NCBI GenBank assembly: GCA_033032865.1
Contig: JAWHQI010000028.1
Coordinates: 7,397,001-7,461,000 of the forward strand
DNA: 64,000 nucleotides
Direction: 5' to 3'
Origin: Dactylorhiza incarnata
Taxonomy: Eukaryota > Streptophyta > Magnoliopsida > Asparagales > Orchidaceae
Shown here: positions 1,080-32,711 of the stretch, piece by piece
Layout: every line of letters starts with the position of its first letter
Position numbering within the stretch: the first letter of the stretch is position 1
Notes under the pieces: generated by a model
What the model was told of the DNA's origin: nothing
What the model saw: the letters and a program-made list of their open reading frames with translations, nothing else
The model's database searches: none
Program-made: the position numbers and the translations under genes

Positions 1080-2203
1080 TGTTGGATCTGTAGGCGCCCT
1101 TAGAGGGGGGGTGAATAAGGGTTTTAAATATTTATGTTATATTTTGAATGACTTGAAAGAATAAGATATTAAAATACTGCTTTTAAATAAAGATCTAAAT
1201 TGTTTTATAATGAAAGAGAGGATAATAAACACTTTAGAGAAATGAAGAATAAAATCAATTTTATTACACAAAGAGACACATGATTACTATTCATAAAATT
1301 GATTACAAAATTAGATTTCTATAATGCTATAAATCGGAGGCGAATAATTATAAAACTCTTTTTTGTTTTCTATCATGACTCGTATCCCCACGAACTGGTG
1401 GCCCTAGCCTATCCTTCCCCCGGATACGGCCTCAATCCGCTCTAGCCAATCCTTCCCCGGATATTGCATCAAGCACCCCTAGACCTAACCTAGATCTAGT
1501 CGCCAACACGAGGCAAATTTCTGCCCTAAGTCCTACCCAGACCTAGTCGCCAACACGAGGCGAATCCACTAAGTGATTATAAGGATAAAGATGTGAAATA
1601 AACAACAATAATATAAAAAACTCCCTCTAAAGAACTTCTGAAGTCGGAGATGAAGGATCGCTGTAGAATAAGCGTGGTTGAAGCGATCGTCCTTCGGATA
1701 TAGCGTGACGAAGTCCTCCTTCAGAATCTCTCTAAGCTTTTTGGTGGGAGATCAACTCTTGGCCGAACAAGGCTCTGGAATTATGGCACTAAACCTCTCT
1801 TCAACTTCTCTAAGGAAAATGAGAGAAGAGGGCTCCTTTTATAGGAGAGAGCGCTAGCGCTTGTGCTAACGCTACCGTCGGCGCTATCCCAGTATAACAT
1901 TATTCTGCGTGTGCGTATCTTTCTTTCCAAGGAAACATTGTCGGCTTTCCTCTTGGGCTCCTCGCTACCGCCTGTGCTATCAGCTACAGCCTGGCGCTAG
2001 CGCCTTCTAAAGATGTTCCCAGAATTGCTCTAATCAAATCTAGCACCTGCGCTAGGTGCTACCGCCGACGCTAGTGGGAATCTAGGAATTTTTGATTTCA
2101 AAGTTGGGGGCAACCTTCATGTGTTGTCCTTGAGTCGTATGGACTTGTTTGCATGTACACTTAACCACACAAGATCAAATACACATAGGATTTGTTATTC
2201 TCA
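1080..2203 (-). repeat. 5' LTR of E1
   Basis: TGTTGG at 1,080 and TTCTCA at 2,203 give TG...CA termini. The box GAGGGGGGGGTGAATAAG near 1,107, shared with the other gag-only LTRs here, lies next to the primer-site end. At 1,380-1,570 are family-specific imperfect repeats (CGCCAACACGAGGC twice). At 1,848-2,075 is a cluster of GCGCTAGCGC / GCTACCGCC words. The outer end is inferred from the CA and the change to A-like sequence; no TSD could be checked. Confidence 0.65.
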
Positions 2204-2316
2204 AACCTAGGAGATGCGGAAGACCATTTTCTAACATCAAGCCCATGCCCTTTCTTCCACTATGGGAAGGAGTGTTTTCCTTCCTATAGGAGCTTCCATT
2301 CTTCTAGTGACCATAC

Positions 2317-4944
2317 TGTTAGAAAGGGGTGCGGCCCTGCCCACCTCAAGGAAGTATCCAGGCGGACCTCCTTTCAACCCCTAGCCAAGGGCTGCAGCCC
2401 AACCAAGCCCAACCCCTCTCCTCCCCTGATCCCAGGAAGGCGGGTTGTTGAGGTCATCTCCCGGGATTCGATCCCATGACCTCCTTGATAAGAAGCTCTT
2501 AACACAGCCCTCATCACCCAGCTACGCTGCAGCGCAGTTGGGTGATGAGGGCTGTGTTAAGAGCTTCTTATCAAGGAGGTCATGGGATCGAATCCCGGGA
2601 GATGACCTCAACAACCCGCCTTCCTGGGATTAGGGGAGGAGAGGGGTTGGGCTTGGTTGGGCTGCAGCCCTTGGCTAGGGGTTGAAGGTAGGTCCGCCTG
2701 GATACTTCCTTGAGGTGGGCAGGGCCGCACCCCTTTCTAACAAAAAACTGATTTTTTGTTAGAAAGGGGTGCGGCCCTGCCCACATCAAGGAAGTATCCA
2801 GGCGGACCTACCTTCAACCCCTAGCCAAGGGCTGCAGCCCAACCAAGCCCAACCCCTCTCCTCCCCTGATCCCAGGAAGGCGGGTTGTTGAGGTCATCTC
2901 CCGGGATTCGATCCCATGACCTCCTTGATAAGAAGCTCTTAACACAGCCCTCATCACCCAGCTACGTTGCAGCGCAGTTGGGTGATGAGGGCTGTGTTAA
3001 GAGCTTCTTATCAAGGAGGTCATGGGATCGAATCCCGGGAGATGACCTCAACAACCCGCCTTCCTGGGATCAGGGGAGGAGAGGGGTTGGGCTTGGTTGG
3101 GCTGCAGCCCTTGGCTAGGGGTTGAAGGTAGGTCCGCCTGGATACTTCCTTGAGGTGGGCAGGGCCGCACCCCTTTCTAACAAAAACCGGTTTTTGTTAG
3201 AAAGGGGTGCAGCCCTGCCCACCTCAAGGAAGTATCCAGGCGGACCTACCTTCAACCCCTAGCCAAGGGCTGCAGCCCAACCAAGCCCAACCCCTCTCCT
3301 CCCCTGATCCCAGGAAGGCGGGTTGTTGAGGTCATCTCCCGGGATTCGATCCCATGACCTCCTTGATAAGAAGCTCTTAACACAGCCCTCATCACCCAAC
3401 TGCGCTGCAGCGTAGCTGGGTGATGAGGACTGTGTTGGGAAAATGATTTCTCTTAACCCCTAGAAATGAGTTTTATGAATGAATAACAAGACTAAGTAAA
3501 TATGCGTCGAATGGTATTCGACGCTACGTCGAAATATAGTCGACGTTTTCTTCAGGATATGTCGAAGTAACTTTAGGAAGATTTCGACGTATGGTTTGTC
3601 GACGCTACTCTGATTTCTAGTCGACGCATATAGAGAAGTCGACGCACCTTTGTCGACGCACATTCCTTATATCTCTCTCGACGTCGGGCTAAGATGAATT
3701 CGACGCTTACGTCGAATAGTAATCGACGCACGTCGATCTTTATGACAGATTTAAATCTGCGCCAAGATCTCTTTCCTTCTTTTCTGAAGATCTGATTTAT
3801 ATAGAATGATGTTAATATTTTATAGCCGTTCTGAATCATTCTTTCCTTCTATTTGATTCTTGGCTAATGTGATTAACTCTATTTTGGATATTATTTGAAA
3901 TCTGAATTAAAATTTTCCATTTATGATTATATCTGCTATGGAAATATTTCTCTCTTCCTAAATCTCTGGCTGCTAATTAATTCCTCTCCTATAGTGCTAT
4001 CTTATGACACAGAGCTATAAAATAAGGAGGAAGTCGGCAGGAAATGCAGTTGAGTGATCTACCACATACATTTTGATATAGAGGAAAAGCTCCCAAAGAA
4101 AAAGAGAGATATTTGAGAAAAAGCTCTGCAGCAATATTCAACCATTTCTTCCTTTACTCACTGCTCACTGCTGCAAAATCTGTTTGCTCTCACTAAAAGA
4201 GAGAAAGGCTACAAATCTTCTTCTCTCTATAGAAGAAAGATTTAATTCATAACTTGTGCTTCCAATCTTCTTGCTAGGAAGAAGATTCATTCTTGTCTTT
4301 ATTTCTTTCTCTTTCTTTATTCTTATTCACTATTGTAAAAGAGTTTTTAGAATCACTCTTCAAAAAATTCAGTGTACTGGTTCTAAGAGTCTCCTTTTCA
4401 AAAGACTCAGTGGGTTCTAAGAGTCTCCTTATCAAAAGACTCAGAGTGGTTCTAAGAGTCTCCTTATCAAAAGACTCAGTGCAAGTTAGTGAATTCCTAC
4501 CAAGAGGGTAGAAGAGTGGACTACCCAAAGTTTGGGGAACCACTATATTTTCTTGTGTTGTGCTGTGATTTTCTCTCTTGCATTTACTTTAATTGCTTGT
4601 CTAATTCTTGTTGGTGTGTGGGAAGTTCTAATCTGTGATCATACACATATATATATATATTAACTTTGCACAAAATATTTTAAATCTCTATTCACCCCCC
4701 CCCCCCCCCCCCCCTCTAGAGAATTCTAGTGAGGTTAACTGTGCACTTTCAGACTGTGTTAAGAGCTTCTTATCAAGGAGGTCATGGGATCGAATCCCGG
4801 GAGATGACCTCAACAACCCACCTTCCTGGGATCAGGGGAGGAGAGGGGTTGGGCTTGGTTGGGCTGCAGCCCTTGGCTAGGGGTTGAAGGTAGGTCCGCC
4901 TGGATACTTCCTTGAGGTGGGCAGGGCCGCACCCCTTTCTAACA
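2317..4944. mobile_element. Six-arm palindromic array (3 x 426-bp foldback units) with TSD CATAC
   Basis: Six 213-bp arms alternate in orientation: 2,317-2,529 (-), 2,530-2,742 (+), 2,757-2,969 (-), 2,970-3,182 (+), 3,195-3,407 (-), and 3,408-3,432 joined to 4,757-4,944 (+). The last arm is split by a solo LTR. Each head-to-head pair starts TGTTAGAAAGG and ends CCTTTCTAACA. Pairs are joined by self-complementary linkers of 14 bp (AAAAACTGATTTTT) and 12 bp (AAAACCGGTTTT). CATAC at 2,312-2,316 and 4,945-4,949 flanks the whole array. Each plus arm contains a tRNA-like B box (GGATCGAATCC) preceded by GTGTTAAGAGC, so the arm may derive from a tRNA-related SINE or a TRIM-like element. It sits in the gag reading frame of element A. 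Confidence 0.85.
3433..4751 (+). mobile_element. Solo LTR, TCGACG-word gag-only family, TSD GACTG
   Basis: TGTTGGGAAAATG at 3,433 and GCACTTTCA at 4,751, with GACTG on both sides (3,428-3,432 and 4,752-4,756). It interrupts the sixth arm of the palindromic array. It carries a cluster of TCGACG words (3,500-3,740), three imperfect copies of GGTTCTAAGAGTCTCCTT (4,379-4,480), and the complement of the conserved GGGGGGTGAATAG box, here expanded to a run of about 22 C (4,694-4,715). Box position gives plus orientation. No coding sequence; LTR-LTR recombination is the usual origin of such a structure. Confidence 0.9.
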
Positions 4945-6773
4945 CATACATGCTTTCATGGTCATACCTATTGGAGGGAAGCAGCACCTTTTGAAAGGTG
5001 GTTTGAGGCTTAGCCTTCTCCTTGCTCTTTTCTCCACTCCCTTCTCCCACTTCCATTTTATTGAATCCAAGTCCTCTCTTATTGGTTTGAGAGGAAAAGG
5101 TGTCAATTATAAGAAGCACAGATTTGGGCTTGGAGAATTGAACCACTAAGCTCTTTTCCTTCAGAAGATTCACCTCAAGGTCCTTGATGACCTTGTTCTT
5201 TTGATAGATGGGGCTCAGATGGATAATTGTCATCCCCTTTAGATGGCTTATTTCTCTACTCATCTGAGCCGCCAGGGTAGATGGTTTAGTGCACCTTTCC
5301 TTATCCATCGTAAGGGAAGCAATTTCTTGGGATTGCATCTTTGCCAGCTTTTTGCTTTTCTTCAGAGCTTCCAAAAGAACACCATACCTATCAATCAATT
5401 GATTGACATCTTCCTCAGATTTTGAATTACTTCCACCAAATGATGAAGGTGCTACAGATTCCGGGCTTGTCTCATAATCAGATGAAGAGATGATATGAAT
5501 TAGTAACTATTCATTTTCAGAGTTGTTCTGACTTGCTTCATCATCAGTGAGGGCCATGAGTCCAAATTTGATATTGTCCTCATCATCATCCTCTATGTCA
5601 CTGTTTGAGTGAGATAGAGGGGCCCTGATTCCTAACCTAGCAGCAGGAAATTCATCATCTCTTTTAGCTGCAAATAGCCCAATGTAGGCTTCTTCCTTGT
5701 CATCTGAATCTGAAGTTGAGGATTCAGATTCACTCCAGCTCTTCCCTTTCTTTGCTAGGAAGGATTTTTCCCCCCTTCCTATCCTTTTGGTGATGTGGCT
5801 TCTTATCACCTTTTTCTTTTCTTTTGACTGGATAGTCAGCAATGACATGTCCAGGCTTGCTGCAGCAATAGCAAATTATGTTATTTGAAACGTGTTTACT
5901 AGATTTAGGTTCATACTTGTCACACTTGGGGTGTTGTCTTTCTGATCTACTGTGGTCCTTCTTGGAGTGTGAGGAGGAGGAGGGTTTGTTCTTCCACTGC
6001 TTCCTCCTCATCATCTTCTTGAATTGCCTTGTAAAGGCAGCAAATTCCTCATCAAATGGGGAGCAGTTTGTGGAGGCTATCTCAGAGTTTTCACTTTCAG
6101 CAGTCCTCTTTGGAGGAGACAGCATCTTGGCTTTGCTCTTCTTGGAGCTGTCAGCTTTGAGAGCAACAGCTCTCTCCCTTGGGTGAGCCCTTGAGGAGGT
6201 GTCATCTTCCTTTCTAGCAGATAGATGCATCTCATAAGAGAGCAGCTTCCCAAATAATGTGTGAGTGGGAGTTTCACCTAGTTTGGCCACCTCCCTAATG
6301 GCACAAATCTTTGTGTCCTAGTCTCTAGTTAGAGTTCTAAGGAACTTGTCATTCAGCTCATAATCAGTGAATACTCTTTCATAAGTTCTTAGCTCATTGA
6401 CTATGCTGAAGAACCTTTCATAATAGATTGAGATGCTTTCTTGGCCCTGCTGCCTGAAAGCTTCATATTCCTGATTTACTAGGAATTTTCTATCATCCCT
6501 CACCTCAGCTGTCCCTTCCATATATACTACTAAGGTATCCCACATTTCCTTGGTTGTATTATAGTGCACCAAGTTCTGAAATGTGGAGTCATCAATAGCA
6601 TTAACTATGATGTTCTGGGCTCTTTTGTCCATAGTGAACAAGGTAAGTTCATCCTTGGTTAACTCATTAAATGGCTTGGCCACTCTTCTAGTTGGATCTA
6701 TTGTGGAGACAGTTTGGAAAGTGAAGGGACCTTTCTTAACAGTAATGTAGATTCTAGGGTCAGATGCTTCCAT
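4945..6773 (-). pseudogene. gag of element A (broken)
   Basis: Segments in order on the minus strand: 6,773-6,318 is the N-terminal part with a UBN2-type domain (MWDTLVVYMEGTAEVRDDRK, then a YYERFFSIVNELRTYE region). 6,290-5,730 continues after a stop with a basic region and a CCHC-like knuckle, CYCCSKPGHVIADY, in which the last Cys is Tyr. 5,848-5,507 is Ser/Asp/Glu-rich. 5,398-4,950 is coiled-coil-like and ends at HESMYV where the palindromic array begins. The array entered this frame at its target CATAC. Stops and frame changes between segments mean it is not translatable as one protein. Unlike B and C, no family word was seen in this coding part. Confidence 0.75.
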
Positions 6774-26062: not shown

Positions 26063-26486
26063 GGTGATTGCTATCAGCACTACAGTTTTGCTATCCGTAC
26101 TTTATTTGTATGAGTTATTACCCGTCTTTTGGAAATATGTTTTGTATATGCATTTTTAGGAAAAGTGATCAACACGAAAGTTGTAGATCTCGTCGAGATC
26201 TACAACTTTCGTGTTGAACATTTTCCTAAAAATGCACGCACAAGGCGTATTGCCGCCCTGATTGAAACATGAGCATAACTATAACGAATTTTGGAAATAC
26301 GCCATGTACATGAATTTTTAGGAAAAGTGTTGAACAAGAAAGTGGTAGATCTCGTCGAGATCTACAACTTTCGCGTTGAACATTTTTCCTCAAAATATAT
26401 GTACAAGAGTTATTTTCAAAAGGCGTATGATAACTCATACAAAAAAAGTGCGGATAGTCAAAACTATAGTGCGGATAACAATCACC
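26063..26486. mobile_element. 424-bp foldback MITE with two internal palindromes
   Basis: Terminal inverted repeats GGTGATTGCTATCAGCAC / CAATCACC extend about 70 bp with mismatches. Inside are two copies of a hairpin centred on TAGATCTCGTCGAGATCTA (about 26,186-26,212 and 26,346-26,372), each flanked by inverted TTTTAGGAAAAGTG / CATTTTCCTAAAA. Flanks TTTTTATC and TTTTTATT are a possible 8-bp imperfect TSD. No coding. Confidence 0.7.
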
Positions 26487-26573
26487 TTTTTATTTTCATT
26501 ATTGCCAATACCTCGAGCAGTTGGACTTGCAAAAGGGGAAATTTATATAGCCGACAGCCACCCGTAAAAAGGA

Positions 26574-26950
26574 GTAATTTTTAGGTACAAGTAGCGTGCA
26601 CAGAGCTGTGCACGCTACTTAACAGTTACAGCCGTAGTTACAGTCGTAATTCCAGGTTACAGTCGTAATTTCAGGTTACAGCCGTAATTTACATAATTAC
26701 GGCTGTAACTGTTAAGTAGCGTGCACAGCTCTATGCACGCTACTTGTACCTAAAAATTACTCCGTAATTTTTAGGTACAAGTAGCGTGCACAGAGCTGTG
26801 CACGCTACTTAACAGTTACAGCCGTAGTTACAGCCGTAATTTCAGATTACAGCCGTAATTTCAAGTTACAGCCATAATTTACATAATTACGGCTGTAACT
26901 GTTAAGTAGTGTGCACAGCTCTGTGCACACTACTTGTACCTAAAAATTAC
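26574..26950. mobile_element. Two tandem 187-bp MITEs sharing 20-bp TIRs
   Basis: Copies at 26,574-26,760 and 26,764-26,950, separated by TCC. Each starts GTAATTTTTAGGTACAAGTA and ends with its complement, with an inner inverted GCGTGCACAGAGCTGTGCACGC and repeated TTACAGCCGTAA units. TAAAAA precedes (26,565) and follows (26,951) the pair, a possible TSD for the composite. Confidence 0.75.
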
Positions 26951-27611
26951 TAAAAAGAGCTTCTTGGGGTTAAATCGTGAAACAGAGACAAGTTTCCCGG
27001 TTACCCAGCCGACAGCCCCTCCTACCTGCGAACTACATCCTCGTCTCCTCCACCGGTAGCATGCCGGTCTCCGGCGACCCATCCCTACTCCTTCCCGTCG
27101 TCGTTCAGGTCCAGATTTTGCTGCCGCTTCCGGGGACCACCTTCACGAACACTGGAGATCTCTCCTTTGTCACCCCCACGAAATCGACGAGCCTTCGTCA
27201 GTTTCGTCACTTCCACCCACTACCTGATAGCTTCATACTAGCCCTGCCATGCGTGTCTCTGCTGGGTCGCCACCTCCAGATCCTCCAAGTCCATTCATTC
27301 ACATTCCCATTCCGATCCGGGACTGTTTCCGACGTCTCCTCACTCAGACCGGAAGGTATATCTCTTTTTCATTCTGCTAGCTCTAATCATGCTAGCTTAA
27401 TTTATGTTTACTTTTATAAGATATTTAAAAATATCAAGCTTGCCTCTTAACTATCATTTTTACTTGTTATCTTTGATTTAAAAAAAAAAACTCTATTGTT
27501 CGTCTTGGTATATACCTGTGGATGATTTATTTCAAGTTGTTAATTATGTTCGAGTGCTAGGCTCGTGTTGAGTCATATGCGACTTTTGATTTAATTATCT
27601 CATTTTGTTGT
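26951..27611. other. No supported gene
   Basis: Contains a 157-codon open frame at 26,977-27,450 rich in Pro/Ser/Leu with no recognisable domain, then AT-rich sequence with an A-run at 27,480. It is not called as a gene. Confidence 0.5.
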
Positions 27612-32698: not shown

Positions 32699-32711
32699 TG
32701 GTATCAGAGCC
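32699..32711 (+). promoter_or_regulatory. Primer-binding site of the copia element (initiator-Met tRNA)
   Basis: TGGTATCAGAGCC directly after the 5' LTR. Confidence 0.95.

Follow-up and report, generated by a model that had tools for sequence, protein, structure and literature searches.

The Cassandra TRIM arrays are the nearest known kind of element to the palindromic array described here from the orchid Dactylorhiza incarnata, which lies in a 64,000-nucleotide stretch of contig JAWHQI010000028.1 (hereafter the window). In the passages of PMC7215508 that treat them, Cassandra elements carry Pol III boxes in their LTRs, have TGGTATCAGAGC as primer-binding site (PBS) and form arrays of at least 12 LTR copies with spacers, which their authors ascribe, as possibilities, to recombination and template switching. 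Measured against these passages, our element is likewise non-coding, bears Pol III motifs within its unit, forms chains of the LTR-spacer-LTR kind and shares the PBS TGGTATCAGAGC, here exact in locus L027 only. It differs in its palindromic unit, in a linker that is usually 12 bp long and self-complementary, in usually having no PBS, in chains that mix orientations and families, and in A/B-box-like motifs instead of the 5S-derived boxes A and C, which it lacks; Rfam gave no 5S rRNA match to window positions 1500-6000 (E up to 1) or to one arm (E up to 10). Wukong and the retrozymes stand farther off. The maize TRIM Wukong is likewise small, non-autonomous and tandem; the sections of PMC4528315 that describe it mention no palindromic unit, and put TRIM LTRs at 100-250 bp and the internal domain at 100-300 bp. 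Plant retrozymes (PMC4918200) are likewise short and non-autonomous, and other papers assign them to the LTR type. Ours, in contrast, is palindromic, and neither a hammerhead nor any other ribozyme was matched by Rfam over the same intervals and E values.

Plant SINEs carry A and B boxes, and here too A-box-like and B-box-like motifs lie near one arm end. Unlike in SINEs, however, the target-site duplication (TSD) is exactly 5 bp, the outer ends are TG..CA without an A tail, the arms are usually paired, and neither a tRNA-related head nor an A-rich or simple tail with a TSD of variable length was found. Foldback elements and MITEs combine an inverted-repeat body with a short TSD, whereas the present linker is near-constant, units form long chains and one array holds a PBS. 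Among the literature matches listed, mostly without subscription journals, no paper dealt with palindromic LTRs or palindromic TRIM or SINE chains; the phrase 'palindromic LTR' does occur in two papers on LTR-finding software. The initial annotation had read TG..CA termini and a 5-bp TSD as the mark of an LTR-retrotransposon integrase. The ends and the constant short TSD are indeed as in LTR elements and TRIMs, but an exact PBS next to the 5' LTR was seen in L027 only. The repeated units lie in mixed orientation, the would-be internal domain usually measures 12 bp, and the common linker, judged by eye, leaves little room for a polypurine tract. Since the ends, the TSD and the one PBS-bearing array point there, we group the element with LTR-type non-autonomous elements; because just one array has an exact PBS junction of the copia type, it is not established as a standard TRIM.

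The array and its relatives in the genome

The array occupies positions 2317-4944 of the window and, as the initial annotation had it, consists of six alternating 213-bp arms (-,+,-,+,-,+) between two copies of CATAC, at 2312-2316 (where L010 supplies an empty-site relative) and 4945-4949. In the arm alignment all six are 97.7-100% identical to the query arm, arm 6 over positions 23-213 only. Arm 1 (2317-2529, minus strand) and arm 2 (2530-2742, plus) form unit 1, whose centre is of the b|a type described below. In arm 2 an A-box-like motif, AGCGCAGTTGG, lies right at the symmetry centre (2531-2541, plus; pattern RGYNNARNNGG), and a B-box-like motif, GGATCGAATCC, follows at 2585-2595 (plus; pattern GG.TCGA..CC). 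Linker 1, the 14-bp AAAAACTGATTTTT (2743-2756), leads to unit 2, made of arm 3 (2757-2969, minus) and arm 4 (2970-3182, plus); linker 2, the 12-bp AAAACCGGTTTT (3183-3194), leads to arm 5 (3195-3407, minus) and arm 6 (3408-4944, plus), the latter split into 3408-3432 and 4757-4944 by an unrelated solo LTR. This LTR (1,319 bp; 3433-4751, plus) is no part of the array, has the termini TGTTGGG...CTTTCA and its own 5-bp TSD, GACTG (3428-3432 and 4752-4756), so that the array itself makes up only about half of the 2,628 bp. Inside it are CGACG-rich near-repeats (3503-3730) and three 35-bp repeats (4378-4481). Elsewhere in the window, a separate cluster of inverted repeats, 67-147 bp each, lies at 26086-26951.

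Besides the split of arm 6, two details of the initial description need amending. Its self-complementary linkers are so fully in linker 2 and only in part in linker 1, and the CTGCAG that it placed at the centres reads TTGCAG at centre 2. The terminal T run of linker 2 could act as a Pol III stop. One unit plus linker folds as a single long hairpin (-474.6 kcal/mol for 438 nt), so a read-through RNA, if any is made, would be mostly double-stranded. As for the tRNA link proposed for the body, neither ARAGORN nor Rfam found a tRNA in the array region or in a single arm, which leaves A/B-box-like motifs only. A microRNA precursor was also rejected: the 22 Rfam matches of this kind on the array each scored under the family gathering score, as any near-perfect hairpin might.

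The element is widespread in this genome, far beyond one locus. A search of 3.27 Gb in 3,184 contigs, of the kind that the initial annotation had called for, gave at least 253 matches to the first palindrome, the window's included (40 of 1,258 candidates scored), and at least 187 to a single arm (40 of 904 candidates scored). A 30-bp centre pattern, which is its own reverse complement and thus marks the same places on both strands, matched 158 times genome-wide against none for a control pattern. Together with the palindrome matches, this argues that the structure in the window is not due to chance. A 19-bp arm pattern also matched exactly in 16 viral-contig stretches.

Arrays and their outer TSDs were tabulated at 30 parsed loci (labelled L plus a number). 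The parse excluded L013 and L018, which duplicate the L012 locus, the short excerpts L001-L008 from places already covered, L051 and L053-L055, for which the longer L056-L059 stand in, and the later loci L060-L073. The L012 locus is present on three contigs, as L012, L013 and L018, each time with the same array of three units; L018 has many single-base deletions. Each parsed locus holds 2 to 17 arm pieces, and complete simple arrays have four (L010), six (L009, L024), eight (L022) or ten arms (L027); because mostly best-scoring loci were sampled, array sizes are biased upward and lone units perhaps under-counted. Lone full-length arms that stop at the palindrome centre were seen in L060 (1027-1249), L063 (892-1113), L064 (932-1153) and L065 (921-1133). 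These half units, at four of the six loci of one sample, have no matching 5-bp flanks, and may be unfinished extension products or breaks at a palindrome tip.

At least six arm families can be told apart: A (213 bp), B (222), C (238), D (232), F (211) and G (about 213); the palindromic units measure about 420-476 bp. A, B and F are 85-91% identical to one another, C is 73-75% identical to these three, and D and G reach only 53-63% identity to every other family. All six share the first 17 nt at the centre bar one, which fit RGYNNARNNGG (at arm position 2 in 6/6 families), the motif GG.TCGA..CC (6/6) and the block CCTCAACA.CCCGC. The first pattern is that of an A box and the second that of a B box, so that both motifs are box-like; their conservation can be explained by common descent too. 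The linker is exactly AAAACCGGTTTT in 35 of 57 linkers of 8-22 bp, most others being one or two bases off, and it recurs in further families beyond the six. More arm families occur in L066, L069, L073 and other loci, with ends such as TGTTGAA..TTCAACA, the same linker and centres that are mostly not a/b.

Insertion and composition of the chains

An exact 5-bp TSD surrounds the whole array in 16 of the 23 arrays having two recognisable outer ends. Four of five TSD bases match in L025, and L021, L030 and L033 have no TSD; in L020, L028 and L056 one end sits in a linker and is thus not an outer end. Outer ends are TGTTAG/CTAACA with few exceptions, such as AGTTAG at the left end of L026 and TGTAGA in L059, and in the 16 arrays with an exact TSD they abut it directly, with no A tail. 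When the flanks of 15 arrays were joined and compared with the other fetched loci, at least five of those tried, the window's included, had an uninterrupted relative across the junction: the window in L010 (87.5% over 328 bp), L032 in L019 (97.3% over 588 bp), L026 in L027 (75.5% over 593 bp), L034 in L065 (72.1% over 592 bp) and L058 in L014 (79.8% over 509 bp). Each relative has a single copy of the target, diverged in some. Over the 60 bases on each side of the junction four pairs align without a gap and L058-L014 with one single-base gap; the joined junction of L010 has an additional gapped 71% match across it. The single insertion with a 5-bp TSD that had been proposed for the window is thus borne out by its CATAC copies, by the 16 of 23 arrays and by the empty sites.

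Separate TSDs round each arm, which would have spoken against that proposal, were absent from the junctions inspected. Independent insertion of each arm was rejected, there being no inner TSD in these junctions. L015, judged by eye, seems to contain an array nested in another and flanked by a TSD of its own, ACCTC: at 3939/3940 and 5158/5159 an array follows the arm's own ACCTC (position 80, 14 bp beyond the B-box motif). In L016 a different TGTTGG sequence follows the same ACCTC at 5281, and this arm site is a possible insertion hot spot.

Several chains are mixed. L026 holds C, D, C/B, B, B, B/F-like and C pieces within a single CTGGC duplication, L057 has B|C, C|C and C|C within TAAAC, L059 combines F and G arms within AAGAC, and in L019, truncated at its right end, normal linkers join A, D and A. 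Five of 86 centres are hybrid, three of them informative (L056, L057, L059), those of L058 and L025 being too short to tell. Each arm of the L056 and L057 hybrids fits a single family at all six sites diagnostic for B and C, which places the exchange at most 53 nt from the centre; in L059 an F|G unit joins its two families at the centre. Exchange at or near the centre, together with intact linkers flanking a foreign family, points to assembly before integration. At least some arrays are built in this way, as their mixed families inside one TSD attest, and to that extent the assembly before integration proposed for the window array holds.

Matched arms and the asymmetric centre

The two arms of a unit are closely alike in the five families measured, with mean identities of 98.2% in A (23 units), 98.3% in B (36), 98.7% in C (10), 98.5% in D (two units) and 94.8% in F (one). 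As the families have diverged by up to 47%, changes must time and again have come to be shared by both arms; the palindrome, in other words, is regenerated over and over. The commonest stem variant of family A, column 62, differs between arms in one of 22 units against 10.7 expected at random, and column 143 of B in eight of 34 against 16.7 expected. Random re-pairing of arms reached the observed distance in 0 of 500 trials for A and one of 500 for B. Rarer variants (columns 89 and 139 of A, 51 and 52 of B) are unmatched, with three units differing against 2.9 expected, as would fit later mutations.

Two units from one array differ hardly more than the two arms of one unit (1.10% and 0.97%, respectively, in A, and 0.92% and 0.88% in B), so that array-wide copying may explain part of the matching. 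In L022 the arms differ at one stem site, and the difference keeps the same a/b phase in four of four units, which indicates that whole units were copied there. A model in which every unit was re-matched independently is weakened by this phase and by the similarity within arrays. Gene conversion after insertion could be an alternative source of the matched stems.

The centres of A, B and C depart from symmetry in one and the same way, with CAGCGCAGTTGG in one arm (a) and CAGCGTAGCTGG in the other (b). Of the 80 centres counted in the sampled loci through L065, 69 have this a/b form. At each of the central positions 6 and 9 the two arms disagree in 19 of the 22 units of family A; among the 34 units of family B they do so in 31 at position 6 and in 32 at position 9. 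Among the first 50 listed of the 158 genome-wide centres, 35 were a/b, seven symmetric and eight of other form, 38 of the 50 lying in loci already sampled. The 12 newly listed centres comprised one a/b, four symmetric and seven otherwise asymmetric ones. Because these are mostly not a/b, the a/b centre is a mark of families A, B and C and does not extend to the superfamily at large.

A possible mechanism and its alternatives

We tentatively propose, with slightly less than even confidence, that the array in the window is a copy of a non-autonomous retroelement superfamily that moves as preassembled chains of palindromic units. The palindrome would most likely be renewed during reverse transcription, by strand switches at both ends of a template whose ends are self-complementary, and the product would then integrate in the LTR manner. 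Each arm may be, or may formerly have been, transcribed outward by Pol III from its A and B boxes, with a putative start 10-20 nt upstream, that is within the opposite arm, and a stop in the T run of the linker. Such an RNA would be self-complementary at its 5' end (the centre) and at its 3' end (AAAACCGGUUUU). The reverse transcriptase of another element could then extend the RNA ends on themselves or on a second such molecule, and each strand switch would add one inverted arm, yielding alternating chains, renewed palindromes, mixed orientations and mixed families. Finally, an LTR-type integrase would insert the chains with outer ends TGTTAG/CTAACA, their ends having presumably been trimmed to CTAACA in some way; the enzyme source and the transcripts are likewise postulated. 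With both template ends self-complementary, the alternation, the variable number of arms and the mixed families would all be accounted for, as would the palindromic linker, the central exchange points and the a/b form found in A, B and C, and the 69 of 80 a/b centres would be expected because the cDNA end would carry a short leader from the other arm. A bolder extension, which we regard as doubtful, would make this a class of retroelements with self-primed chain extension: both ends of the RNA or cDNA would prime on their own partner or on that of a relative, no PBS would be needed, alternating chains of related families would form before integration, the palindrome would be renewed every round, and a Pol III leader derived from the opposite arm would have left the fixed a/b mismatch in A, B and C as its footprint. 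As the a/b centre is not general, we rate both the chain proposal and this extension slightly lower. Other points that weigh against the chain proposal are the missing TSDs of L021, L030 and L033, the mix of like and opposite orientations among neighbouring units, and the failure to find a tRNA in the arm.

The alternative that survives best, though we consider it unlikely, is a TRIM-type LTR retrotransposon like Cassandra, in which the palindrome is the LTR and the linker a vestigial internal domain; after insertion, unequal LTR recombination would build the arrays, inverted arms would flip units and gene conversion would keep the arms matched. It accords with the TG..CA ends and the 5-bp TSD, with the likeness of units within an array and with the whole-unit copying with flips in L022, and with the Pol III boxes and the arrays of 12 or more LTR copies that the sections of PMC7215508 cited above describe for Cassandra. 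Two oppositely oriented linkers of L027 have TGGTATCAGAGC exactly behind CTAACA, so that a PBS stands right after the LTR-like end. The 30-bp linker of L059 (3205-3234) holds a degenerate PBS four bases from the arm end, with TTTT before TGTTAG, and presumably resembles the 3' part of initiator tRNA-Met. However, the exact CTAACA-TGGTATCAGAGC junction occurs nowhere in the genome beyond the two in L027, and 55 of the 57 linkers of 8-22 bp are without a PBS. Being unique to L027, that PBS may be the relic of an ancestor or a capture from a copia-type template. This exact junction, searched genome-wide, was the sole probe for an autonomous partner and revealed none. In the window, TAACA followed by TGGTATCAGAGC, a copia-like PBS, lies at 32699, outside the array. 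Post-insertion crossing-over alone, moreover, would not be expected to give mixed-family chains with intact linkers inside one TSD (L026, L057, L059) or exchanges at the centre.

A less probable source still is a DNA transposon of the foldback or MITE kind, mobilised by a transposase akin to retroviral integrase. DNA transposons of the Ginger/TDD types have TGT..ACA ends and 4-5-bp TSDs, and the palindromic body, the TGT..ACA ends, the 5-bp TSD and the lack of a PBS in most linkers would suit such an origin. The linker, however, is not target sequence, being identical in 35 of 57 cases, and neither the PBS in L027 nor the mixed-family chains fit. More improbable again is a rod-shaped circular RNA of one unit plus linker, reverse-transcribed by a rolling circle into chains as in retrozymes. 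Circularised, unit plus linker does fold to a nearly complete rod with two hairpin ends, and neighbouring units share their orientation in 23 of the 36 decided pairs (12 further pairs had no call); yet the remaining 13 pairs are inverted, mixed families would need template switching besides, and no ribozyme family was matched in the Rfam searches of positions 1500-6000 (E up to 1) and of a single arm (up to 10). An assembly artefact is scarcely credible: although palindromes are hard to sequence and the L012 locus appears on three contigs (L012, L013 and L018), the structure recurs at 30 parsed loci with differing flanks and TSDs and with clean empty sites.

Long near-perfect palindromes are generally unstable, yet a mobile family in this genome produces them again and again and is able to insert many arms in one event. 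If the proposed renewal by strand switching is true, a parasite of retrotransposon enzymes could dispense with a primer-binding site. It would also provide an origin for natural mobile hairpins that would encode long double-stranded RNA, which may affect small-RNA silencing. The a/b centres and the hybrid units make the strand-switch point open to direct testing.
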